64,000 nucleotides of DNA, from assembly GCA_027622715.1 (NCBI GenBank), contig JAQBYN010000003.1, forward strand, positions 1 through 64,000. The letters are read 5' to 3'. The notes under the pieces were generated by a model. The model made no database searches. It worked only from the letters and a program-made list of their open reading frames with translations, and had not been told where the DNA came from. Shown here piece after piece: positions 6,580 to 49,993 of this stretch. Source of the stretch: Pseudomonadota bacterium (GTDB taxonomy: Bacteria; Pseudomonadota; Alphaproteobacteria; SHVP01). Positions within the stretch are counted from its first letter, which is position 1; each line of letters begins with the position of its first letter. Made by a program: the position numbers and the translations under genes.

Positions 6580-6601
6580 GGTCAGGACCAGCCATTTGCC
6601 G

Positions 6602-7825
6602 ATGAATGATATGCGCGAAACCTCAAGTTCCGACGCTGCCGCCGCTTTAGATCTGGGCGGCATTCCTTGGTATTACCACCGCTTTGTGCGGGGGTTTCAG
6701 CGAGGTTTTGTCGCGGGCACCTTGCATTACGTTCTGCCACGAGGTCATCGCGGCACGATCCGAGGGGCGCAGCCCGGGCCAGTCGGTACGATCGTGCTCC
6801 ATCGCTGGCGGGCGGTGCGGCGGCTTCTTCTGCGTGGGAGCCTTGGTTTCGCCGAAGCTTATCTCGACCGCGACTGGGAGAGCCCGGATCTGCCGACGTT
6901 CGTCGAATTGGTGACTCGCAATGCCGTCAACCGTCGGGTCGGGACGTTTTGGCACCGCGTCTTCGAGCGGATCAAGCACGGTCGGCGGACCAATTCAAAG
7001 GCCGGGAGTCGGCGCAATATTGCCGCCCACTACGATCTTGGAAACGAGTTCTATGCGGCGTGGTTGGATCCGTCGATGACCTATTCGTCGGCTGTGTTTC
7101 GCGAGGACGTCGCGGTCTTAGAGGACGCGCAATCGCAGAAATACGGACGGCTTCTTGATCTCATCCAAGCCAAGCCTGGCGATCGCGTGTTGGAAATCGG
7201 CTGCGGCTGGGGCGGTTTCGCGGAGTATGCCGCGCGCCTAGGCGTCGGCGTCACCGGTATCACCATTTCGCGCGCACAGCATGAATTTGCCGAGCAACGC
7301 ATCGCCCAGGCCGGTCTGTCGGACTTGGCCGAGATCAGGTTATGCGATTATCGCGACATTGAAGGTTCGTACGACCATGTCGTGTCGATCGAAATGATCG
7401 AGGCTGTTGGGGAAACCTACTGGCCGGTTTACTTTGAGCGGATCGCTGGTTGTTTGCGCAAAGGCGGTCGTGTTGCGATTCAAGCGATCACGACGCGCGA
7501 CGAACATTTTGCGCACTACCGGCGACGTGCCGACTTTATTCAGACCTACATATTCCCCGGCGGAATGCTGCCATGCCGTAGCGTGTTGCGGGATCAGGCG
7601 CAGCGCGTCGGGTTGCAGTGGATCAGCGATGACGGATTTGCCACCCACTATGCCCGGACCTTGGGGGAGTGGCGCAAAAAGTTTGTCTCGTCTTGGCCGC
7701 ATATCCGTGGAATGGGTTTTGATGAGCGCTTCAGGCGTATCTGGGAGTTTTATCTGGCGAGCTGCGAGGGCAGCTTTCGTGCGCGGGGAATCGATGTGCT
7801 GCAAATCGCTTTGGTGAAAGCTTAA
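6602..7825 (+). CDS. cfa: cyclopropane-fatty-acyl-phospholipid synthase family methyltransferase
   Basis: A 407-residue SAM-dependent enzyme of the CFA synthase family, expected to methylate or cyclopropanate the double bond of phospholipid acyl chains at the membrane face. The SAM motif VLEIGCGWGGF lies at about 196-206, preceded by the family blocks NIAAHYDLGNEFYAAWLD and MTYSSAVF, and followed by SIEMIEAVGE and a C-terminal YLASCEGSFRAR that carries the conserved Cys. Two starts are possible: ATG 6602 (used here) or TTG 6596, which is better placed (8 nt) after AGGA at 6584-6587. Close relatives in such clusters may make methyl-branched or furan fatty acids rather than cyclopropanes. Its stop shares the palindrome TTAA with the stop of the convergent SDR gene. 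Confidence 0.93.
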   Translation: MNDMRETSSSDAAAALDLGGIPWYYHRFVRGFQRGFVAGTLHYVLPRGHRGTIRGAQPGPVGTIVLHRWRAVRRLLLRGSLGFAEAYLDRDWESPDLPTFVELVTRNAVNRRVGTFWHRVFERIKHGRRTNSKAGSRRNIAAHYDLGNEFYAAWLDPSMTYSSAVFREDVAVLEDAQSQKYGRLLDLIQAKPGDRVLEIGCGWGGFAEYAARLGVGVTGITISRAQHEFAEQRIAQAGLSDLAEIRLCDYRDIEGSYDHVVSIEMIEAVGETYWPVYFERIAGCLRKGGRVAIQAITTRDEHFAHYRRRADFIQTYIFPGGMLPCRSVLRDQAQRVGLQWISDDGFATHYARTLGEWRKKFVSSWPHIRGMGFDERFRRIWEFYLASCEGSFRARGIDVLQIALVKA

Positions 7826-21251: not shown

Positions 21252-21281
21252 TTGACTCCCCCACCCACCGTCATGTGACAA
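21252..21281 (+). promoter_or_regulatory. btuB: possible promoter of the B12 uptake operon
   Basis: TTGACT (21252-21257) followed after 18 bp by TGACAA (21276-21281), or after 19 bp by GACAAT. The -35 is good, the -10 is weak. It would start the transcript at about the 5' end of the riboswitch, which is where a promoter is needed. Confidence 0.42.
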
Positions 21282-21287
21282 TGGCCG

Positions 21288-21454
21288 TGACGGTTCCCCG
21301 AAAGGGGTGAAAAGGGAACACGGTGAGGCCTATTTGCTGAAACCGTGGCTGCCCCCGCAACTGTAAGCGGCGAGTTTGTGTCCGTACCAGCCACTGGGAA
21401 ACCGGGAAGGCAGGGCATAGAACGTTGACCCGCAAGCCAGGAGACCTGCCGTCG
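21288..21454 (+). ncRNA. cobalamin (adenosylcobalamin) riboswitch
   Basis: A full-length B12 riboswitch aptamer. Conserved parts in order are GGTGAAAAGGGAACACGGTG (near 21305), the junction GCTGCCCCCGCAACTGTAAG (near 21349), GCCACTGGGAAACCGGGAAG (near 21391) and the B12 box GCAAGCCAGGAGACCTGCC (21432-21450). The closing stem pairs TGACGG near 21288 with CCGTCG near 21449. With B12 present it should lower expression of the operon downstream. No U-tract terminator follows, so control may act at translation or through a long-range structure in the roughly 200-nt leader. Confidence 0.96.
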
Positions 21455-21655
21455 ACGTCATCCATCCGTCGATCGGGGCGCTCGGTGGTGCGGATTTCCG
21501 TAGTGGTGACGACGATTGTACGTCGTAGCTGTGGGTCCGCGAGATGGAAGCTTCCGCTCTATCCATATTTGTCGTTCCGGGTCGCCGGACGCCGAAATCA
21601 TGCCGGTCCTTCGATGCTGCGCGCGTGCGTAACGCTCATCGCTTCGGAGAAACTC
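21455..21655 (+). other. leader between the riboswitch and btuB
   Basis: No gene is apparent in this 201-nt stretch. It is transcribed leader. I see no hairpin with a U-run. The ribosome site GGAG (21646-21649) at its end could be masked by upstream pairing when B12 binds, but I cannot fold it by eye with confidence. Confidence 0.55.
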
Positions 21656-25442: not shown

Positions 25443-26239
25443 GCGCGATCATGGCGGAAAAGGTTTCGGTCGATTTGGGTGCGCGGGCGGTCCTGCGCTG
25501 CGCCTCGCTCACTGCTGCGACAGGTAACTTTGTTGGGCTCATCGGTCCGAATGGATCGGGTAAGACCACCTTGCTGAGAACCATGGCGGGCTTGCAGCGG
25601 CGTGTGGCCGGTACTGTGCGGATTGACGGGCAGCTGATTAATGACATGGCACGCGCCGAATTGGCGCGGCGGCTCTCTTTCTTGCCGCAAGGGTCGGAAG
25701 TTCATTGGCCGCTCAGGGTTGAACGTCTTGTTGCGCTGGGACGCATACCGCATTTGGATGGTTGGCGGCGTCTGAGCGGCCCAGATCATGAGGCCGTCGC
25801 CGAGGCGCTGCGCGCGGTCGGGGCGGCGCACTTGGTTGAACGAACTGTTTCAGCGCTTTCAACCGGTGAACGCGCGCGGGTGCTGCTGGCGCGGGCGTTG
25901 GCGAGCGAGCCCGCGATTTTACTGGCCGATGAACCGGTCGCCTCGCTCGATCTTAGTCACCAGCTGCTTGTTCTTGATCTCATACGAGATCTCTGTGTTC
26001 AGGGCATGACGGCTGTGGTGGTTTTTCATGATCTGACGATGGCGGCACGGTACTGCGATCGCCTCACGCTTCTCGTTCAAGGGCGTACATTCGCCGAAGG
26101 CACGCCGGACGAAGTTCTGGTGCCAGCTAATTTGCGCGATGCGTATGACGTTGAGGGCGCGCTGAGAAGCGACCTTGGTGTGCCCCATGTTGTGTCGCTG
26201 CGACGGATCGACCGAGCGCCCGCTGGACCGCTACAATGA
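25439..26239 (+). CDS. btuD: cobalamin ABC transporter ATP-binding protein (BtuD-like)
   Basis: A 266-residue ABC ATPase. Walker A GPNGSGKTT begins at 36, the Q-loop is in SFLPQGSEVHWP, the signature is LSTGERARVLLARAL (first residues slightly variant from LSGGE), Walker B is AILLADEPVA and the switch His is in VVFHDLTMAA. It powers B12 import together with the preceding permease. It overlaps btuC and tonB by 4 bp each. In the FecE/BtuD group the substrate is set by the operon, here by the riboswitch and btuB. Confidence 0.93.
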   Translation: MSAIMAEKVSVDLGARAVLRCASLTAATGNFVGLIGPNGSGKTTLLRTMAGLQRRVAGTVRIDGQLINDMARAELARRLSFLPQGSEVHWPLRVERLVALGRIPHLDGWRRLSGPDHEAVAEALRAVGAAHLVERTVSALSTGERARVLLARALASEPAILLADEPVASLDLSHQLLVLDLIRDLCVQGMTAVVVFHDLTMAARYCDRLTLLVQGRTFAEGTPDEVLVPANLRDAYDVEGALRSDLGVPHVVSLRRIDRAPAGPLQ

Positions 26240-27339
26240 GACCGTTCGGATTCGCCATCGGCGTATCAGCCGCGGTGCATCTTACTGCGGCGGGCGCTTT
26301 TCTGGTTGGTCTGCCGGTTCCTGCGCCTGACGCTTATCCCGAAGTAATCGTCACCGACGTTGTATTCGAGACACCGCGCGACGAGATGAGCGAGGCCTCG
26401 CCGGCAGCGACTGCTGTGAGCTCGACGGCCTCGAATGCCGCAGAGGTCGGTGAGAGGGAGACCGCACCGGAAATGGCGGCCCTCGGCGCCGTTCAACACG
26501 AGGCGGTGGAGACGCCGTCGCCGCTTGCGCCGGCGGCGGGTGTTCAGCCCGATGAGACTGCCTTGAAGGCGCCGTTTGCTGAATCAATTCCGGAACCGGC
26601 TTTTGACAGCGTCGTGCCGGGCCCTAGGGAGCCCGACGCGGGGTCCTCGGCGGTGCTCGATCAGGTCGCCTTGCTGCCGGTCGATGCGGCGTCGGCTGCA
26701 GAACCCAGCAGCGAGGAAGAGCCTGAATGGACCGGTATCGTGCCGCGCGTTAAGCCGTTGCCGCCATTGCCCCGCCAGGAAACTGCGGTGGTCGCCGAGA
26801 CGAATCTGCCGGATGCTAGCGTTGCGGGCCCATTCGGTCCCGTCGATACACTGCAAATCGACGAGATGGTATCGCGGGTCGACGATCAGCCCGTTCATCC
26901 GCAAGCCGAAACGCGAAACGCCGAGCGGGTGGATGAGATCGCAATGGTCGCGCCCAACGATGACGCCAGCATCCCGCCGGGCCAAACTACCGCACCGCCG
27001 CGACATGCCGACCCGTCGTTCGGCAACGGGCCGCCGAAATATCCGTATGCGGCGCGACGGCGCGGCATGCAAGGCCGGGTCCTAATCGAGGTGCGTGTTG
27101 ATCGCGAAGGCGAGGTTCGCGAGGCACTTCTTGCATCATCAAGCGGCTATCGGATACTCGATCGTGCGGCGCTCGAGGCCGTCAGGCATTGGACCTTCGC
27201 CCCAGCCCGACGCGGCGACCGACCCGTCGAGTCGACCATCACCGTGCCGATCGTTTTCAAGCTCGAGCAGGACGCTGTAGTCGCCCAGGATCAGCCGCGC
27301 GATATCGCGGACGGTGACGGCGGCGGCCCGCGCCGCTAG
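26236..27339 (+). CDS. tonB: TonB-family energy transducer dedicated to the B12 operon
   Basis: A 367-residue TonB protein: one N-terminal membrane anchor (about 5-24), a long Pro/Glu/Ala-rich periplasmic linker (about 30-250) and a C-terminal TonB domain starting near GNGPPKYPYAARRRGMQG and continuing through LIEVRVDREGEVREALLASS and AVRHWTFAPARRGD. It would transmit proton-motive force to BtuB. It is the last gene of the riboswitch operon, overlapping btuD by 4 bp. No exbB/exbD is nearby, so it must use an ExbBD pair encoded elsewhere. A short Gly/Arg-rich tail follows the domain. Confidence 0.92.
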   Translation: MRPFGFAIGVSAAVHLTAAGAFLVGLPVPAPDAYPEVIVTDVVFETPRDEMSEASPAATAVSSTASNAAEVGERETAPEMAALGAVQHEAVETPSPLAPAAGVQPDETALKAPFAESIPEPAFDSVVPGPREPDAGSSAVLDQVALLPVDAASAAEPSSEEEPEWTGIVPRVKPLPPLPRQETAVVAETNLPDASVAGPFGPVDTLQIDEMVSRVDDQPVHPQAETRNAERVDEIAMVAPNDDASIPPGQTTAPPRHADPSFGNGPPKYPYAARRRGMQGRVLIEVRVDREGEVREALLASSSGYRILDRAALEAVRHWTFAPARRGDRPVESTITVPIVFKLEQDAVVAQDQPRDIADGDGGGPRR

Positions 27340-40309: not shown

Positions 40310-42811
40310 TCATGATTGTCCGGCTTTGCCGCCGCGGGGCGACAGATCGCGCAGCACAGAGAACGGCGATGAGGACGGCTTGGCCAACCGTTCTCTCCCG
40401 CGCCGGTTCTTCGGCACGCCGGCGGGTGGTCGCGCGCTTGTGAATACATCGTTGGCAGGGTCGGTTTTTCGGTAGCCGACAAAATTCATGGCGATGGGAA
40501 ACTCTCTACGCGGATATCCGATTAGGGATAGGAGTTCGGGGCTTTCGTATGCCGTGGGTCCGATGACCGCGAGCGCCTGGCCGAGGCGTTCGAGGGCATC
40601 CACGCGCACCGCGCGACCGCCGATGAGCCAGTAGCCGCAGGCGTTGTAGACAAGATCAGAAGAGCCCGCGGGTGCTTCAAACGACACGCGCCCCACCGGA
40701 ATTGATTGGGGCCTGGCGCTATGGAACACGCAAGCGAGTTCTAGCGCCAACGCGGTCCGACGCCGTTTCAGAAGTGCCGGCATATAGACGAAATAGCGAC
40801 CCAGTTTCACGCCGTGGCGCTTCAGATTGGTTCGGTCCTGCGGCGATAACGCGGCGACCAAGTCATGCACATCACTGGCGCGAACCACCCCTAGTCGCTC
40901 TCCAATTTGGAAAACGAGACCGCGCCCTGCACCTTTGCAGTCCAGCTGCGTGATCCGGATTAGCGGCGCGAGAATCTGCGCTATCTGTTTCTTCAACCAG
41001 GTGACAAGCCGCGTACTCACGTGCGTCACCACAGCTACGCCGAGCAGGATGTCGTCGGCGACCACCACGAGGGCTGGGCGCAGCACGTGATCACCGCGGA
41101 CCAGTCGGGCAACGATATTGCCGCGCCAGCGAATTACGCCCCCATCTATCTCGAAAGCTTGGTCGTTGCTCTTCGAGAGTTCCATTGCGTGCGCCACAAC
41201 GGTTGAGCGAAGTTCGCGGCGAATGGCTTTGTGATCTGCGGCGGGTACACTCGGGTTGCTGATGAACCGCAGCCCGCGAAGGGTGCCGACGCGCGCACCG
41301 TCGATCTGGACCGCGCCATCTGGATCGACTTCGACGGCGAGCGCCCCCGATTCACGCAGACGGCGCAACGCGGCAACGTGCTGACGGTCCACGAATCGCT
41401 GCGTGAGGCGCGCGTGAAGCGCGTCGGACAACCGGTCTTCGACCGCAATCGCGCGCGCTTGCCAATCCAATGCGTCGTCGACCCAATCACGTTGATGGGC
41501 GATGTAGGTCCAGGTTCGGATGTGGGCGAGACGGGTTTGCAGGGTATCGATGTCGCCTGTCGCTCGGTCGAGGTGTCCGATGTTCCGCGCCAAGAAATCG
41601 CTTGGCAGCCGGCTCGATGGCCCGATTAGGTATCTAAAGATCTGACCCAATAGGTTGGTGTGGGTTTCGTGGAGCATTTGTTGGAAATCTGGAATCGTGC
41701 ATACCTGCCATAGCAAGGGCACGTTCGCCGGCGAACGCACAGCGCGGGCAATATCTGCTTCACGGTACAGGCTACGCAGGGTGCGCAGGTCCGAGGCCTC
41801 CATTGCCGGCTGTAGAAATCTCTTGTGCGGGCGTACTTCAAGGCTGGTGATCAGACCTGGGACGGAGGAAAAATCGAGCGCCGCGTTCCTATATCGGAGC
41901 CGAGTGAGCGGCGCGAAGCTGTGTGATTCCACCGCCTCGATCACGTCGTCGGCGAGGGCCTCGGCCTCGCCGGTTGTGCCAAATGTACCCGGATTTAGAT
42001 GGCGTCCTGCGCGCCCCGCGACTTGCCCGATTTCGGCCGGTGTGAGCCGCCGCTCGATTTGGCCATCGAATTTGCGCAGCGACGCAAACGCAACATGATC
42101 GATGCCCAAGTTGAGACCCATGCCGATTGCGTCGGTCGCGACGAGGTAGTCGACTTCCCCGGCTTCGAACAAACCGACTTGCGCATTGCGGGTGCGTGGG
42201 CTGAGGGCGCCCATGACCACCGCAGCGCCGCCCTTCTGGCGCCGTAGGAACTCGGCGATCGCGTAAACATCCTCGGCGCGGTAGGCGATCACTGCGGCGC
42301 GCCGCGGCAATCGCGAGAGTTTGTGGTGGCCGGCGAAGCTTAGTGTCGAAAGCCGCGGCCGGCCGTCAATCCGAATGCCAGGAAGCAGACGTCTCAGCAG
42401 GGGGCGGACCGTATCCGACCCCAGGAACATGGTCTCCCTCGTGCCGCGCGCCGCGATCAGGCGGTCTGTGAAGGTGTGGCCGCGCTCGGGGTCGGCTGCC
42501 AGTTGGACTTCGTCGATCGCCAGGAACTCGACGGGCACCGAGATCGGCATGGCTTCGACCGTGCACACCCAAAAGCGGGGTTTTGGTGGGACGATGCGTT
42601 CTTCGCCAGTGACCAAAGCGACATCATCGGGACCGACCAGACTTGATACCCGGTCGAATACTTCGCGTGCGAGCAGCCGGAGCGGCAGCCCAATCATGCC
42701 GGTGCGGTGGGCCAGCATCCGCTCGACCGCCAAATGGGTTTTCCCGGTGTTTGTGGGCCCCAGGACGGCAACGGGCTGACTGGCGTTATCGTGGGTCATG
42801 AGCCGCGACAT
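40310..42811 (-). CDS. SUV3-like DExH RNA helicase
   Basis: An 833-residue superfamily 2 helicase close to the mitochondrial RNA-degradosome helicase SUV3. Walker A is GPTNTGKT (18-25), the Walker B box AIDEVQ (about 98-103), followed by motif III-like FLGSDTV, motif V ATDAIGMGLNLGID and motif VI EIGQVAGRAGRH. The long C-terminal half (beyond residue 400) is the poorly characterised extension usual in alphaproteobacterial members, ending in a basic tail. It should unwind structured RNA, possibly with an exonuclease. ATG 42811 is used; an ATG four codons later is equally possible. It is divergent from the methyltransferase-ligase gene and starts the minus-strand helicase-terB-fdxA-carD run. 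Confidence 0.9.
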   Translation of the reverse strand: MSRLMTHDNASQPVAVLGPTNTGKTHLAVERMLAHRTGMIGLPLRLLAREVFDRVSSLVGPDDVALVTGEERIVPPKPRFWVCTVEAMPISVPVEFLAIDEVQLAADPERGHTFTDRLIAARGTRETMFLGSDTVRPLLRRLLPGIRIDGRPRLSTLSFAGHHKLSRLPRRAAVIAYRAEDVYAIAEFLRRQKGGAAVVMGALSPRTRNAQVGLFEAGEVDYLVATDAIGMGLNLGIDHVAFASLRKFDGQIERRLTPAEIGQVAGRAGRHLNPGTFGTTGEAEALADDVIEAVESHSFAPLTRLRYRNAALDFSSVPGLITSLEVRPHKRFLQPAMEASDLRTLRSLYREADIARAVRSPANVPLLWQVCTIPDFQQMLHETHTNLLGQIFRYLIGPSSRLPSDFLARNIGHLDRATGDIDTLQTRLAHIRTWTYIAHQRDWVDDALDWQARAIAVEDRLSDALHARLTQRFVDRQHVAALRRLRESGALAVEVDPDGAVQIDGARVGTLRGLRFISNPSVPAADHKAIRRELRSTVVAHAMELSKSNDQAFEIDGGVIRWRGNIVARLVRGDHVLRPALVVVADDILLGVAVVTHVSTRLVTWLKKQIAQILAPLIRITQLDCKGAGRGLVFQIGERLGVVRASDVHDLVAALSPQDRTNLKRHGVKLGRYFVYMPALLKRRRTALALELACVFHSARPQSIPVGRVSFEAPAGSSDLVYNACGYWLIGGRAVRVDALERLGQALAVIGPTAYESPELLSLIGYPRREFPIAMNFVGYRKTDPANDVFTSARPPAGVPKNRRGRERLAKPSSSPFSVLRDLSPRGGKAGQS

Positions 42812-42992
42812 TCGCCCAGCAAACCAGATCGGGCCTATTGCGTGCAAGGCCGGTGCAAGGCCCGCAATCCAAGATTTCGCTTGTAGGCGGCCCTGGATTC
42901 ATCCGATGTCGAGGCGTGGCACCTATTGGGGTCATCCCCGGTCACTGCCGCCGACCGGCCGCATTCAAGGCAATGCACAGCGAGCCACGAAA

Positions 42993-44903
42993 ATGAGAGA
43001 GCCAATCAACGCGACCACTGGCCGAACCCTCGGTCCGGTCTCGGACCTCGAACGTCACCTTCCTTCGGACTGGTGGCAAACGCTCTTCAACTCGCTGTAC
43101 CTCAAGACAGACGGCGACGTCGTCGAGAACGCCGCCAACACAACAACCGATATTGACCTTCTCATCCAAACCGCAGGCGTCGAGACCAATGACCATATTT
43201 TGGACCTTTGCTGTGGTCAGGGGCGCCACACCCTAGAGCTTGCCCGGCGGGGATTTCGGCAGGTAACTGGCGTCGATCGATCACGGTACCTCGTTCGCTT
43301 GGCCCGCACACGTGCGCGCAAGGAAGAATTGAACGCGGTGTTTCGCGAGGGCGATGCCCGCACCGTTCGGTTGAAGGCGGCGTCCTTCCACTGCGTCATC
43401 ATGATGGGTAATTCTTTTGGCTATTTCGATCGCGAAGAAGACGACGCTGCGGTTCTAGAGACTGCAAAGAAAGCGCTGGTGTCGCGCGGCACTCTTGTGA
43501 TGGATGTCGCCGACGGCGAGTGGATGAAAGACCATTTCGAACGCCGGTCTTGGGAGTGGGTCGACCAAAACCACTTCGTATGCCGAGAGCGCAACCTGGC
43601 GCGCGATGGCCGCCGCTTGATTTCACGCGAGGTGGTTGTTCACGCTGAGCGGGGTGTGCTTGCCGATCAGTTTTATTCCGAGCGCTTGTACACCCGGCAT
43701 GAGATCCAGCAGCTGATGGAGTCGGTTGGCTTCACGCAAGTTCGGTTTCATGCCGAAGTACAGAGCGCCTCATCGCGCAACCAGGACTTGGGCATGATGG
43801 CGCACCGCCTCTTTCTCACTTCTGAAGCGCCGGCAAAGTCGACCGTCGCGCGAAAAAGGGAAGTTCCATTTCCGCAAGTTACGGTCCTGATGGGCGACCC
43901 CAGGTTGCCCGATAGCGTGAAACTTGGCGGCCATTTTAATCCCGAAGACCTGGATACGATCGAACGACTGAAGGACGCGCTGTCCGAAATGGAGGGTATG
44001 TCTTTCCGGTATCTCGACAACCACCAATCGCTTTGGACCGAGTTGCGCACAAACCAACCCAGTTTTGTTCTCAACTTATGCGACGAAGGGTTCAACAACG
44101 ACGCGTTTCTGGAACTCCACGTACCGGCAATGCTCGACCTCTTTGGCGTGCCCTATTCGGGGGCAGGGCCTGCGGCATTGGGCCTGTGCTACGACAAAGC
44201 GTTGGTCCGCGCGATTGCGCAGTCCCTCGAGATACCCGTGCCATCGGAGACATTTTTCGACCCGGCCGATCAAGCCGCAACGCTCCCGGGCATATTTCCG
44301 GCAATGATCAAGCCGAATTTCGGCGACTCGAGTATCGGTATTACGAAGAACGCCGTGGTCCGCACCCCGGAAGAGGCAATCAATTATATCAATGAGTTGA
44401 GGGAACTCCTTCCTGGGCGTCCACTACTCGTACAAGAATACTTGGAGGGCGCCGAATATTCGGTTGGCGTCGTCGGCAACCCAGGGTTTGATTTTCACGT
44501 CATGCCGGTTCTTGAAGTGGACTACTCGGGTCTTGAGAGCGGGTTGCCGCGAATCCTGGGCTATGAGTCGAAATGGGATCCGGCGTCCCCGTATTGGACT
44601 CAGATCAAATACAAAGAGGCCACGTTGTCGGAAGAGGATCGTCGCCTCCTTGCCGACAATTCACGGGCCTTGTTTGAGCGGCTTGGGTGTCGTGATTACG
44701 CCCGCTTCGATTTCCGGGCTGATTCATCTGGCAAGATCAAGCTCCTTGAAGTGAATCCGAACCCCGGTTGGTCCTGGGACGCCAAGATGAACCTCATGGC
44801 TGGCTTCGAGGGCCTAAGGTATCCGGACCTGCTGCGGATGATCGTGGAGGCGGCGCAGGCGCGTGTTGCAGCGCAGCGAGGGGTCGTGGCCGCGGCGGCT
44901 TAG
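42993..44903 (+). CDS. fusion: class I SAM methyltransferase + D-Ala-D-Ala-ligase-like ATP-grasp
   Basis: A 636-residue two-enzyme protein. Residues 1-275 form a Rossmann methyltransferase: motif I ILDLCCGQGRHTLELA (69-84), VTGVDRS for the SAM ribose (about 91-97) and CVIMMGNSFGYF. Residues from about 292 on form an ATP-grasp ligase: VPFPQVTVLMGDP, DEGFNNDAFLELHVPAMLDL, MIKPNFGDSSIGI (about 438-450), LLVQEYLEGAEYSVGVV and the metal-binding LEVNPNPGWSWDAKMN (about 584-599). This is the D-Ala-D-Ala ligase superfamily, but a stand-alone ligase outside a mur cluster suggests another amide bond, perhaps in a methylated peptide-like metabolite. No substrate is known. No clear ribosome site; ATG 42993 best fits the domain start. 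mutB follows by 63 bp. Confidence 0.87.
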   Translation: MREPINATTGRTLGPVSDLERHLPSDWWQTLFNSLYLKTDGDVVENAANTTTDIDLLIQTAGVETNDHILDLCCGQGRHTLELARRGFRQVTGVDRSRYLVRLARTRARKEELNAVFREGDARTVRLKAASFHCVIMMGNSFGYFDREEDDAAVLETAKKALVSRGTLVMDVADGEWMKDHFERRSWEWVDQNHFVCRERNLARDGRRLISREVVVHAERGVLADQFYSERLYTRHEIQQLMESVGFTQVRFHAEVQSASSRNQDLGMMAHRLFLTSEAPAKSTVARKREVPFPQVTVLMGDPRLPDSVKLGGHFNPEDLDTIERLKDALSEMEGMSFRYLDNHQSLWTELRTNQPSFVLNLCDEGFNNDAFLELHVPAMLDLFGVPYSGAGPAALGLCYDKALVRAIAQSLEIPVPSETFFDPADQAATLPGIFPAMIKPNFGDSSIGITKNAVVRTPEEAINYINELRELLPGRPLLVQEYLEGAEYSVGVVGNPGFDFHVMPVLEVDYSGLESGLPRILGYESKWDPASPYWTQIKYKEATLSEEDRRLLADNSRALFERLGCRDYARFDFRADSSGKIKLLEVNPNPGWSWDAKMNLMAGFEGLRYPDLLRMIVEAAQARVAAQRGVVAAAA

Positions 44904-44966
44904 GCGGTTTGACACCATCGGCGTAGGTTTCTCATACTGATTTCGCATCTGCGAAGAGTGGGGTCG

Positions 44967-47108
44967 ATGACCGAATTTGAGAAACCGACGTTGGCCGAGT
45001 GGCGCGACCGAGCCGAGAAAGAGCTCGCCGGACAGCCGCTTGACGGTCTGGTCTGGCGGACGCCGGAAGGGATCGAGGTCAAACCGCTTTACACGGCTGC
45101 CGATGCCGCCCCGCGCGCCAGCGATCTCCCGGGGTTTGCGCCCTACCTTCGCGGCCCACGATCGACGATGTACGCCAATCGCCCGTGGACGATCCGTCAA
45201 TACGCGGGGTTTTCCACCGCTGAGGACTCAAACGCGTTCTATCGTCAGGCCCTGGCCGCGGGCCAAATGGGCCTATCTGTGGCGTTCGATTTGGCGACCC
45301 ACCGCGGCTACGATTCCGATCATCCCCGAGTCGAAGGCGATGTCGGCAAAGCCGGCGTGGCGATCGATTCGGTCGAGGACATGAAAGTCCTATTTGACGG
45401 TATACCGCTCGACCGGGTCAGCGTTTCCATGACGATGAACGGCGCCGTGCTGCCGGTTCTCGCGGGCTATATCGTGGCGGCCGAGGAACAGGGCGTACCC
45501 CGAGAAAAACTCTCCGGGACAATTCAGAACGATATTCTGAAAGAGTTCATGGTCCGGAATACTTACATCTATCCGCCTGAGCCATCGATGCGGATCGTCG
45601 CCGATATCATTGGCTATACCGCGCGCGAAATGCCGCGATTCAATTCGATCTCGATATCCGGCTATCACATGCAAGAAGCCGGTGCGACGCTGGTGCAAGA
45701 ACTTGCCTACACGCTCGCTGATGGGGTGGAATACGTCAAAGCTGCGATCGCCACCGGCCTTGATATCGACGCATTTGCGCCCAGGCTTTCGTTCTTTTTC
45801 TGTATCGGTATGAACTTCTTCATGGAGGTCGCGAAGCTGCGGGCAGCGCGACTGCTGTGGGCCGAGCTGATGCAGCGTTTCGAGCCGAAGGACCCGCGGT
45901 CGCTGTCGCTGCGCACCCATTGTCAGACGTCCGGGGTTTCGCTGACCGAGCAGGATCCGCACAACAATGTGGTGCGCACCGCGTATGAAGCGATGGCCGC
46001 GGTGCTGGGTGGGACCCAAAGCCTTCATACCAATGCGTTTGACGAAGCGTTCGCCTTGCCCTCGGAATTGTCGGCACGGATCGCCCGCAACACACAGCTT
46101 ATTCTGGCCGAAGAAACCGGGGTAACGCGTGTCGTTGATCCGTTGGGCGGCTCTTACTACGTCGAATCGCTGACGGATTCATTGGTGGCAGAAGCGCGAA
46201 AACTCATCAGCGAAGTCGACGCACTGGGGGGTATGACCAAGGCGGTTGCGCAAGGCATGCCGAAGCTGAGAATCGAAGAATCTGCGGCCCGCAAGCAAGC
46301 GCGCGTGGACCGGGGCGAAGACGTCATCGTTGGGGTCAACAAATACCGGCTCGATAAGGCTGACGACATCGATCTGATGGAGGTCGACAACCGCAAAGTG
46401 CGGCTGCAGCAAATTGAGCGGCTCGGCAGTATTCGAAGCGCGCGCGACGCAGCCGCGGTCACCGCGGCATTGGACGCGTTGCGCACAGGCGCGCAGGGCG
46501 ACGGGAATCTATTGGCGCTGAGCGTCGAAGCCATTCGGGCGCGCGCAACGGTGGGGGAAGTATCGTCGGCGTTGGAAGATGTGTTCGGACGTCACCGCGC
46601 TCAGACGATGGCGGTGTCGGGTGTCTACGGCGATGCCTTCGACGATGACGCGGGTTTTGCTAACACGCGCCAGGCGGTCGAACGGTTTGCCGACCGAGAA
46701 GGCAGGCGGCCCCGCATACTGGTGGCGAAGCTTGGACAGGACGGACATGACCGCGGCGCCAAAGTTATTGCCACGGCATTGGCCGATATCGGTTTTGACG
46801 TCGATATAGGCCCGTTGTTTGCGACGCCCGGCGAGGCGGCGCGGCAAGCCATCGAAAACGACGTGCATGTGATCGGCATTTCGTCACAGGCCGCCGCGCA
46901 CAGGACGCTCGTGCCACAATTGATCGCGGCGCTGCGCGATGAAGGTGGTGGCAATATTATTGTTGTGGTTGGCGGCATCATTCCGCCGAAGGATTACGAT
47001 TTTCTGTTCAAAGCCGGGGTCGGTGCGATTTTTGGGCCGGGCAGTAATATCGTCGTCGCGGCCGACCAAATCTTGGCTCTATTGGGCGACAACCGGGCCG
47101 CCGCCTGA
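44967..47108 (+). CDS. mutB: methylmalonyl-CoA mutase, catalytic (B12-binding) subunit
   Basis: A 713-residue adenosylcobalamin enzyme that interconverts (R)-methylmalonyl-CoA and succinyl-CoA in propionate metabolism. The N-terminal TIM barrel has [20 protein letters not shown] and [20 protein letters not shown]. The C-terminal B12 domain carries the base-off motif GQDGHDRG with His594 and [11 protein letters not shown]. No small subunit gene is next to it; it may be a homodimer or have its partner elsewhere. GTG nine bases upstream is an alternative start. The chaperone gene meaB lies 1.9 kb downstream, with a DUF4389 gene and the Trp-repeat gene between. Confidence 0.97.
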
Positions 47109-47123: not shown

Positions 47124-47510
47124 TTAGCTCTTTTCGTCTTGGGCCTGCCGTGCAGCGGTTTTGACGACGCGGGTCCGCCTAACTTGGGCCGAACCCGCCG
47201 CGGTGTTGCGGCCGGCATCGGATGACGTGGGCGACGGCCAAGCCATCATCGGCCACGGTTTTTGCTCCGAGCCAAATGTTTCGAACGCGGTGATTTGCCG
47301 TAAATAGTGACCGAGGCTCGCGCCAAACGCTGACAGGCGTGGCACTGGTTTTCCTGAAACAAGCTTGAATCCGAGCTGAATCAAGGTGACGGCGGCGCCG
47401 ACCCAGACGGCAAAATAGAAGACGACTGCGAAGAGCAGCATGAACACCACACGGCCCCAAACTACGGGATTCGTGAGGTTGCCAGCGATTTCTGTATCTC
47501 GTTCGGCCAT
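47124..47510 (-). CDS. DUF4389 membrane protein
   Basis: A 128-residue protein with a long hydrophobic region (VVFMLLFAVVFYFAVWVGAA and onward), giving one or two membrane segments, followed by the DUF4389 pattern FGASLGHYLRQITAFETFGS and EQKPWPMMAWP. The C-terminal 40 residues are polar and basic. Function is unknown. It is convergent with mutB (15 bp apart) and divergent from the Trp-repeat gene, so it is a separate unit inside the mutB-meaB region. Confidence 0.82.
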   Translation of the reverse strand: MAERDTEIAGNLTNPVVWGRVVFMLLFAVVFYFAVWVGAAVTLIQLGFKLVSGKPVPRLSAFGASLGHYLRQITAFETFGSEQKPWPMMAWPSPTSSDAGRNTAAGSAQVRRTRVVKTAARQAQDEKS

Positions 47511-47692: not shown

Positions 47693-48892
47693 ATGGCAAG
47701 AATTCCGACTAGAAGGCCGCGCGCGCGCGATCCAGCGTCATCCGATCCGCCCTGGGTCGACGATCGGCGACCATCTCGCGATCCGCCGCCGATCGAGCCT
47801 GACTGGGCGAATGACGCGCGGCCCAGCGATGTCACATCCGAACCCTACGAGCCGAACTGGGCTAAGGAACAACCCCCGCCCGCCGCCGCACCGCCGCGGT
47901 CGGACCCGCCCTGGGCGGCCCAGTCGGTTATCGACAACGATGCGGCGCTGCGTGCCGCTTTGGCGGAAACGCCGCCGCCCGATCCGCCGTGGGCGACGGT
48001 CGCAGCACCGCCGAATGGACCGGCGCCATCGGCCGATCCACCGTGGGTGGAGGACGTGCGTCCCAACACCGACCCGCCGCCACCCATCGAGCCGAGTTGG
48101 GCATCTGCGGTTGACGAGACCGAGATTGAGGATCTGCCGCCGGCTGATCCCCCGTGGGCGATCGATCCGCCGCCCCGGCCGCCCGTCATTTTGCGGGGAC
48201 CGATCGATCCGCCGTGGGTCCCGGACGACGTGTCCGAGGCCATCGCGGCAGAGGAAAAAGCTGCTCGAGCCGCATTCGAGCCTGACTGGGCAAAGCAATC
48301 GGCGACAGGTCGGTCAAAAAAACCGATCCCGCGCATGGAGCCTTCCTGGGTTGACGATGTCGCACCCACGCCACCAGTGCCCGGCGCGCTTTTTGACCCC
48401 GGTTGGGAATCAACCCCGATTGCGGTTCCCCTGCCGCCGATGGAACCGGATTGGGCGAACGAAATTGACGAGGCGGACGACGATTTTGCTGCAGCGTTTG
48501 ATCCTGGCTGGGAGGAGAGCGCACGGCCGGTGGCAAGCGCGCCATTACCGCCAATGGAACCAAGTTGGGCGGTAGAAGTACAAAGTGAAGTGGAGCAAGC
48601 GAGATCAGATATTTTCGAGGCACCGTTGGAAAGCGATGGACCCATTGTTACGCCGGACAAGATGAGCATTCTTAAGGGCGCCCAGCGTTTGCGCGGCATC
48701 GCCGCACAGGTTTCACTGAATCCATTTGGTCGTGCGAAGAAAAAGAATGCGGCACGTCAAATCGAACGAGAAAAGCTAATTGCCGACGCGATGCGCATCC
48801 GGACCGAGACTCGCGAGGCCCTGGGGGAGGAAACCGTCAATGCGCTTTACCGGAGCATCATGGGGACGGATCCGTCTGAGGACGAACGCTAA
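47693..48892 (+). CDS. Trp-motif repeat protein: fifteen [D/E]-P-x-W units, C-terminal helical domain
   Basis: A 399-residue protein I do not recognise. Residues 1-300 are Pro/Asp/Ala-rich and look disordered, but hold fifteen copies of [D/E]-P-[P/D/N/S/G]-W-[A/V/E]. The Trp residues are at 21, 38, 56, 74, 100, 118, 136, 155, 175, 199, 219, 238, 254, 273 and 292, mostly 16-20 apart; every Trp in the protein is in a motif. Neighbouring copies use different synonymous codons, so selection has kept the peptide. From about 322 the chain changes to basic, helix-forming sequence (MSILKGAQRLRGIAAQVSLN, KKKNAARQIEREKLIADAM). No signal peptide, membrane segment or Cys. It looks like a multivalent scaffold for a Trp-pocket partner. 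meaB starts 90 bp downstream on the same strand. ATG 47693 has only a weak ribosome site. Confidence 0.78.
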   Translation: MARIPTRRPRARDPASSDPPWVDDRRPSRDPPPIEPDWANDARPSDVTSEPYEPNWAKEQPPPAAAPPRSDPPWAAQSVIDNDAALRAALAETPPPDPPWATVAAPPNGPAPSADPPWVEDVRPNTDPPPPIEPSWASAVDETEIEDLPPADPPWAIDPPPRPPVILRGPIDPPWVPDDVSEAIAAEEKAARAAFEPDWAKQSATGRSKKPIPRMEPSWVDDVAPTPPVPGALFDPGWESTPIAVPLPPMEPDWANEIDEADDDFAAAFDPGWEESARPVASAPLPPMEPSWAVEVQSEVEQARSDIFEAPLESDGPIVTPDKMSILKGAQRLRGIAAQVSLNPFGRAKKKNAARQIEREKLIADAMRIRTETREALGEETVNALYRSIMGTDPSEDER

Positions 48893-48982: not shown

Positions 48983-49993
48983 ATGACGATTCATCTCGAA
49001 GGTAATGACGAACAACTTAGGCAGGCGATCTTGGCGGGGGATCGTGGCGGGCTGGCGCGCGGTATCACGCTCGTCGAATCGGAACGCGCCGACCATCAAG
49101 AGCGTGCAGAAAAACTGGTAACGGCTCTGTTGCCGCGAACCGGCCAAGCCACACGACTGGGTATTTCGGGCGCCCCGGGTGTTGGAAAATCTACATTTGT
49201 CGAGGCCTTCGGCATGCATATCGTCAACGCTGGCCACCGGGTTGCGGTGCTTGCAATCGATCCATCAAGCCGGCTCTCGGGCGGATCAATCCTCGGCGAC
49301 AAGACGCGAATGGATGAGCTAAGCCGTCATCCCGCGGCCTTCGTCAGGCCCTCGGCCGCGGGCCATACGTTGGGTGGGGTTGCCCGCCGGACGCGCGAGG
49401 CCATCTTGCTCTGCGAAGCCGCGGGTTACAACGTCGTGATCGTCGAAACGGTTGGCGTTGGTCAGTCCGAGGCCACCGTCGCTAACATGGTCGATGTATT
49501 TCTCTTGCTGATCGCGCCGGGTGGCGGCGACGAGCTGCAGGGCATAAAGCGGGGCATTGTCGAACTTGTCGATCTGATTGTCGTGAACAAGTGCGACGGC
49601 GATCTCCTGCCGGCGGCGGGGCGGATCGCCGCGGACTACCAAGGTGCGTTGGGTCTTTTGCGGTCGCTGTCGGTCCACTGGAAACCCGAAGTGGTCCAGT
49701 GCTCGGCGCTTGAACATCGGGGGATCGACCAGGTTTGGGAAGCCGTCGGGCGTTGTGCCGACACACTGCGGCGCACCGGAGATCTAGCGGACCGGCGGGG
49801 CCGCCAACTCACAGATTGGCTTTGGCAAGAGGTAACAGGGGGCATTATGGATGCGCTCCGGCGCGACGCCAAAACAGGCGCGGTTGCCAAAACACTCGAA
49901 CAAGAGGTGATTTCACAGCGTCTTTTGCCACCGGCAGCGGCCCGCCAGGTCCGAGAATCATTCTTTCGCCGGCCTGAGCGGACCGAAGAATAG
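48983..49993 (+). CDS. meaB: methylmalonyl-CoA mutase-associated GTPase MeaB (ArgK family)
   Basis: A 336-residue G3E-type P-loop GTPase that loads and protects the B12 cofactor of methylmalonyl-CoA mutase. Walker A is GAPGVGKST (about 62-70), then LAIDPSSRLSGGSILGDKTR, the switch region VIVETVGVGQSE, and the base-recognition motif VVNKCDGD in place of NKxD. The C-terminal dimerisation helix is present (LEQEVISQRLLPPAAARQ). ATG 48983 fits the family N-terminus. Its position near mutB and after the Trp-repeat gene supports a link between the three. Confidence 0.95.
   Translation: MTIHLEGNDEQLRQAILAGDRGGLARGITLVESERADHQERAEKLVTALLPRTGQATRLGISGAPGVGKSTFVEAFGMHIVNAGHRVAVLAIDPSSRLSGGSILGDKTRMDELSRHPAAFVRPSAAGHTLGGVARRTREAILLCEAAGYNVVIVETVGVGQSEATVANMVDVFLLLIAPGGGDELQGIKRGIVELVDLIVVNKCDGDLLPAAGRIAADYQGALGLLRSLSVHWKPEVVQCSALEHRGIDQVWEAVGRCADTLRRTGDLADRRGRQLTDWLWQEVTGGIMDALRRDAKTGAVAKTLEQEVISQRLLPPAAARQVRESFFRRPERTEE

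Follow-up and report, generated by a model that had tools for sequence, protein, structure and literature searches.

The analysed window, a continuous stretch of 64,000 nucleotides, carries on its forward strand a gene (positions 47693–48892, ATG start) for a 399-residue protein, composed of an N-terminal motif array and a C-terminal helical module. The gene lies between mutB (methylmalonyl-CoA mutase; 44958–47108, forward strand; NF006944/PF01642) and meaB (methylmalonyl-CoA mutase-associated GTPase; about 48986–49993, forward strand; NF006958/PF03308), the latter beginning 93 nt downstream of it. A preliminary description of the DNA had named both flanks correctly but omitted a gene for a small membrane-type DUF4389 protein (47124–47510, reverse strand), which is divergent from the array gene and separates it from mutB. 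The DUF4389 gene occupies the same place in several relatives, and the order mutB–DUF4389–array–meaB is kept within the genus. Ahead of mutB, a single open reading frame (42798–44903, forward strand) joins a SAM methyltransferase domain to an ATP-grasp domain of the D-Ala-D-Ala-ligase type. Further upstream, a cobalamin riboswitch (RF00174, 128.7 bits; 21274–21467, forward strand) is followed by genes interpreted as a TonB-dependent receptor, a periplasmic binding protein and an ABC importer, an arrangement consistent with B12 uptake, as would suit a genome encoding a B12 mutase. The cluster ends with a TonB-like protein (26236–27339, forward strand), in which a single EPEWT, near to the array motif and not identical to it, stands in an acidic, proline-rich stretch (SEEEPEWTGIVPR).

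Fifteen [DE]-P-x-W motifs span residues 18–292 of the array protein (47744–48568, forward strand), and each of its 15 tryptophans falls inside one of them. Successive tryptophans are 17, 18, 18, 26, 18, 18, 19, 20, 24, 20, 19, 16, 19 and 19 residues apart (range 16–26, mostly 17–20). The x position is occupied by P, D, N, S or G, with DPPW accounting for six copies, and the residue after the tryptophan is A, V or E; the motifs form the subtypes DPPW[AV], [hydrophobic]EP[DNS]WA and FDPxWE, the last in two copies, and PPIEPDWANDARPS is an example of a 14-residue motif peptide. The number of motifs, the set of residues at x, the placement of every tryptophan and a spacing of about 18 residues all agree with the preliminary description. 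Composition-preserving shuffling of the protein (20,000 shuffles) yielded a mean of 0.5 and a maximum of 5 motifs, against the 15 observed. Tandem Repeats Finder returned no row at the locus, and codon choice differs synonymously between the motif copies, so that the peptide rather than the DNA is the repeated unit, as had been proposed; a recent expansion of tandem-repeat DNA was rejected as the source of the array on the same evidence.

The array is acidic, with a net charge of −31, and is followed by a basic segment (residues 329–358; 48677–48766, forward strand), helical in the predicted model, and by the module of about 38 residues (48767–48880, forward strand), the sole part of the protein conserved across the family. 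AlphaFold2, run with four sequences only, gave a pLDDT of about 50 over the array, which is thus predicted to be mostly disordered, and helices at residues 323–340, 344–377 and 379–390. Together with a net charge of +7 over residues 329–362, these predicted helices bear out the earlier view of a basic, helical C-terminus. Modelled alone with ten relatives, the module was again predicted to be helical (mean pLDDT of 79). At curated cut-offs, the array protein matches no family in Pfam or NCBIfam; a PDB sequence search with its alignment returned no match, and a fold search with the module no significant one.

Array orthologues were compared in three species of one genus: the genome of the window (G000), G001 and G002. 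Neither a lack of orthologues nor near-neutral substitution, either of which the preliminary description had held to count against its reading, was found. The orthologue of G001 is full-length and 63% identical, and that of G002 (MAG CALJDF01, uncultured Alphaproteobacteria bacterium) is split over two contigs, its pieces being 55–58% identical. Only the contigs of this MAG were recovered when the genome collection was searched with conserved stretches of the array protein, and the plasmid collection gave no match to it; weak matches in G059, G006:C105 and G000:C33 contain in-frame stop codons and were discarded. The orthologues begin alike (MAR-x-P-x-RR) and keep the order of their motifs, at 15 of 15 positions in G001 and at 15 motif places over the two contigs of G002, one of which reads IESDW at a contig end. 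Between G000 and G001, the spacings correlate at 0.94 and the first motif residue, D or E, is identical at all 15 positions. Differences at codon positions 1, 2 and 3 amount to 3, 5 and 43% in the motifs and to 25, 28 and 60% over all codons; NG86 dN is 0.04 in the motifs, about one-twelfth of the value of 0.49 in the linkers, and 0.11 over the C-terminal 45 residues; dS is saturated. Judged by this pattern of substitution, the [DE]PxW array is a peptide array with strong purifying selection on its motifs, and its reading frame is confirmed. The persistence of motif subtypes across the species indicates that the array predates their split and that its copies are not being replaced.

The C-terminal module has a wider distribution. 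A profile of the last 38 or so residues finds a match in all ten genomes of the family, and gave no convincing match outside the family in the rest of the 385 genomes of the class. Outside the genus, the module is a short protein of about 50–80 residues without any [DE]PxW motif, and the array is limited to that one genus; on these sequence comparisons, the array is thus a genus-limited addition to an older small protein that is usually linked to meaB. The module lies directly upstream of meaB in five of six genera, and in G004 its stop codon overlaps a GTG start of meaB by 4 nt, as GTGA. In the sixth genus (g4; G005, G008 and G009), mutB adjoins meaB with no module between them, and the module is found in an mreB–mreC–mreD–PBP2–rodA neighbourhood, read in G005 and matched by the neighbours in G008 and G009, the gene names being assigned by reading translations. 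The copy in G005 (L020, G005:C11:24000-38000, positions 6595–6762) comprises 55 residues and stands beside the mre/rod genes. In G007 (L025, G007:C93:18104-21202, positions ~1360–1641), Trp-less tandem PDPAPSAQ repeats precede the module at the place of the array; one repeat unit contains an in-frame stop, and a stretch of N lies upstream.

The 385 class genomes were scanned, independently of homology, for three motifs at about 15–25-residue spacing, a design that, with sampled genomes and fixed spacing ranges, may miss further carriers. Outside the genus, the scan found two genomes of other families, G213 (four motifs in EPDWATGETNPAQQVA-type units) and G282, in which a HEAT-type protein of DUF2336 (PF10098) has a motif array for its C-terminal tail; pattern matches in G084 and G113 were set aside, not being peptide arrays of this kind. 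A DUF2336-type search gave matches in 140 of the 385 genomes, or roughly one in three, and a census with an E cut-off of 1e-40 covered 137 of the sequences, drawn from 55 families. Fourteen of the 137 proteins, belonging to six families (f56, f59, f97, f102, f105 and f128), contain a total of 31 [DE]-P-x-W-[ASV] motifs, where 0.39 would be expected from shuffled tails and linkers; neighbouring proteins hold 5 [DE]PxW in 108,279 residues. All 31 motifs have A, S or V after the tryptophan, and 23 have D at x. The motifs are located in C-terminal tails or in a variable internal linker. A few linker motifs were labelled ‘fold’ by the census script, the linker columns belonging to the profile; only one motif, at the conserved WHxPL site of G215, is at a truly folded site. 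A further tail, with seven motifs, is present in G067, where it was joined to its DUF2336 through a 139-nt contig overlap. The single [DE]P[DNEK]WA matches that were read in sequences other than DUF2336 and the array protein fall mostly in folded proteins or in frames that are short or non-coding.

A FastTree tree built from the folded part of DUF2336 requires six changes of the motif trait, with at least five of the changes forced by well-supported branches; losses may be among them. Of the tails, some are recent DNA-level repeats (G213), and others have diverged linkers (G302, G105 and G379). In the tail of G282 (L107), four of the eight Trp motifs, in near-identical 17-residue units, read DLDWA instead of DPDWA, and the proline of the motif may, to judge from these copies, be replaceable by leucine. 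The array protein has no homology to DUF2336 outside the motif and lacks the DUF2336/HEAT core; a relationship of the module to DUF2336 was likewise rejected, the profile comparison showing none. The genome of the window encodes its own DUF2336 (G000:C72), a clear homologue (41–43% identity) without tail or motif. Other genera of the family have a DUF2336 with neither motif nor array, and genus g4 is without both DUF2336 and the array.

In 19 of the 20 genomes examined, the gene group adjacent to DUF2336 is the PAS–GGDEF group of G000, where the two are on the same strand. The flanking genes include argB, yihA, yidC, a HAD hydrolase, dapD and dapE, the short names having been taken from Pfam matches and translations. 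Two tandem genes of the GGDEF group adjoin DUF2336 in G282, G381 and G304 (L280, L286 and L287), and do not track with motif presence. The motif-bearing DUF2336 proteins of other families are encoded beside a diguanylate cyclase gene, not beside mutB and meaB. Since no paper in the literature searched names DUF2336 and no solved structure matches it, its putative link to c-di-GMP signalling is drawn from this gene order.

The conservation of the motif in fifteen places, and its repeated appearance in disordered parts of a second, unrelated protein, is best read as that of a docking ligand. On a modest balance of probability, the array protein would be a multivalent docking scaffold whose reader is common to the motifs of DUF2336. 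A disordered, acidic chain would present 15 copies of [DE]-P-x-W-[AVE] and would end in the basic helical module. Each motif would serve as a low-affinity ligand for a putative reader with a pocket accepting the acid, the proline and the tryptophan, and fifteen copies at a spacing of about 19 residues would allow one chain to gather many readers. The reader would probably be the same, or of the same kind, as that for the near-identical [DE]PxW[ASV] motifs of the DUF2336 tails and linkers, with the array acting in trans in this genus, whose own DUF2336 has no motif. The helical module, which most genera carry beside meaB, would provide an anchor or a further point of connection. Protein binding by the motif, a common reader and anchoring by the module are all steps that we infer. 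Purifying selection and predicted disorder make the avidity device of the preliminary description a sound reading, although the specific scaffold for MutB and MeaB that it added is weakened, as set out below. Some observations speak against a common reader: the array frequently has P at x, whereas DUF2336 mostly has D, and two array copies read FDPxWE, so that the two sets of motifs may have different readers; the proteins are also non-homologous outside the motif.

A broader formulation is offered tentatively, as plausible without being probable: that [DE]-P-x-W-[ASV] is an undescribed alphaproteobacterial short linear motif, repeatedly gained on unrelated disordered parts and read by one conserved hub. 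The 15-copy protein would be its most extreme carrier, acting in trans here as opposed to in cis on DUF2336, and would link a c-di-GMP-associated HEAT protein system to a meaB-linked module.

An alternative, which we regard as unlikely, is that the DUF2336 HEAT-type protein itself binds the motifs, in cis on its own tail in other families and in trans in this genus, where the array would cross-link the motif-less DUF2336, perhaps around the neighbouring diguanylate cyclase. A Rosetta-stone pattern argues for it, the motifs being fused to DUF2336 in f59, f97, f102, f105, f128 and f56 and separate in the genus, as does genus g4, which lacks both DUF2336 and the array. Against it stand the other genera of the family, in which DUF2336 occurs with neither motif nor array, and a test for fixed changes specific to the genus, in which DUF2336 exceeded control proteins with two genomes of the genus (p = 0.003), an excess not upheld with three (p = 0.12).

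More doubtful still is the role suggested in the preliminary description, that of a scaffold or metabolon organiser for MutB and MeaB. It draws on the gene order kept within the genus and on the position of the module directly before meaB in most genera, with the 4-nt overlap in G004. However, no conserved association of the array with mutB and meaB was found across relatives: the module that stands beside meaB in other genera comes without the array, and in g4 the module is separable, lying in the mre/rod cluster while mutB and meaB adjoin each other without it. The motif of other families is carried by DUF2336, away from mutB and meaB, and neither MutB nor MeaB shows an excess of genus-specific change. 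A MutB or MeaB reader is less likely because the array is absent beside the meaB-linked module elsewhere and the motif lives elsewhere; the near-identical motifs on DUF2336 of other families make DUF2336 and c-di-GMP-linked regulation the better place to look for the reader.

A non-protein partner for the tryptophan motifs, whether a ligand or a surface (membrane, polymer or cofactor), is very improbable. Chains rich in tryptophan are able to bind glycans or membranes, and the C-terminal segment is basic; but the N-terminus (MARIPTRRPRARD), as read from the sequence, is unlike a signal peptide, the array has no hydrophobic stretch and is strongly acidic, and the strict [DE]P-x-W-[ASV] form demands more than a tryptophan. 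Low-complexity drift, in which the motifs would be by-products of a proline- and acid-rich spacer before the helical module, is hardly credible and as a full account is refuted by the substitution pattern, for although the Trp-less repeat of G007 indicates that the N-terminal part can turn over, all 15 tryptophans stay in motifs, dN remains far lower in motifs than in linkers, the spacing and the choice of D or E are kept, and the motif recurs on another protein.

With many conserved motifs, a disordered chain and free linkers, the array protein has the make-up of a multivalent short-linear-motif scaffold. Such scaffolds are a known kind; their networks are familiar from eukaryotes and have, to our knowledge, seldom been documented in bacteria. 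The literature searched contained no description of the motif, of the array protein or of the recurrence on DUF2336, and none of DPDW or EPDW as a bacterial motif. The eukaryotic endocytic DPW proteins (epsin and eps15, ligands of the AP2 alpha-appendage) similarly present many short D-P-W-type ligands on a disordered chain for avidity, a likeness that the preliminary description had drawn. It holds for the many-motif chain but stays an analogy only: the array protein is bacterial, its motif has one residue between P and W in place of the D-P-W tripeptide, and it has no sequence match in Pfam (ENTH or EH domain) or the PDB. EPYC1 and CsoS2 are disordered enzyme-clustering linkers with regularly spaced binding sites on one chain, as in the array. 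The array locus differs in having neither Rubisco nor a compartment, the motif is unrelated, and the putative tie of the array to the enzymes of the locus is one of gene adjacency, weakened by the separate module of g4 and by the motif on DUF2336. A precedent for a protein pocket holding an EPDW peptide is provided by EPDW(F/Y) phage-display peptides that bind streptavidin (PMC6259164), which came from artificial selection and have F or Y after the tryptophan instead of A, S or V; this binding is also a warning against streptavidin-based pull-downs of motif peptides (PMC6259164). DUF2336 proteins with [DE]PDW[AS] tails or linkers bear the same short motif in disordered parts, in 1–7 copies and six families, and differ in their HEAT-type folded core, of which the array protein has none. 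The recurrence of the motif is a first functional handle on DUF2336. Its occurrence in seven families of Alphaproteobacteria, on two proteins unrelated to each other and with evidence of selection, is a pointer to a reader yet to be discovered.
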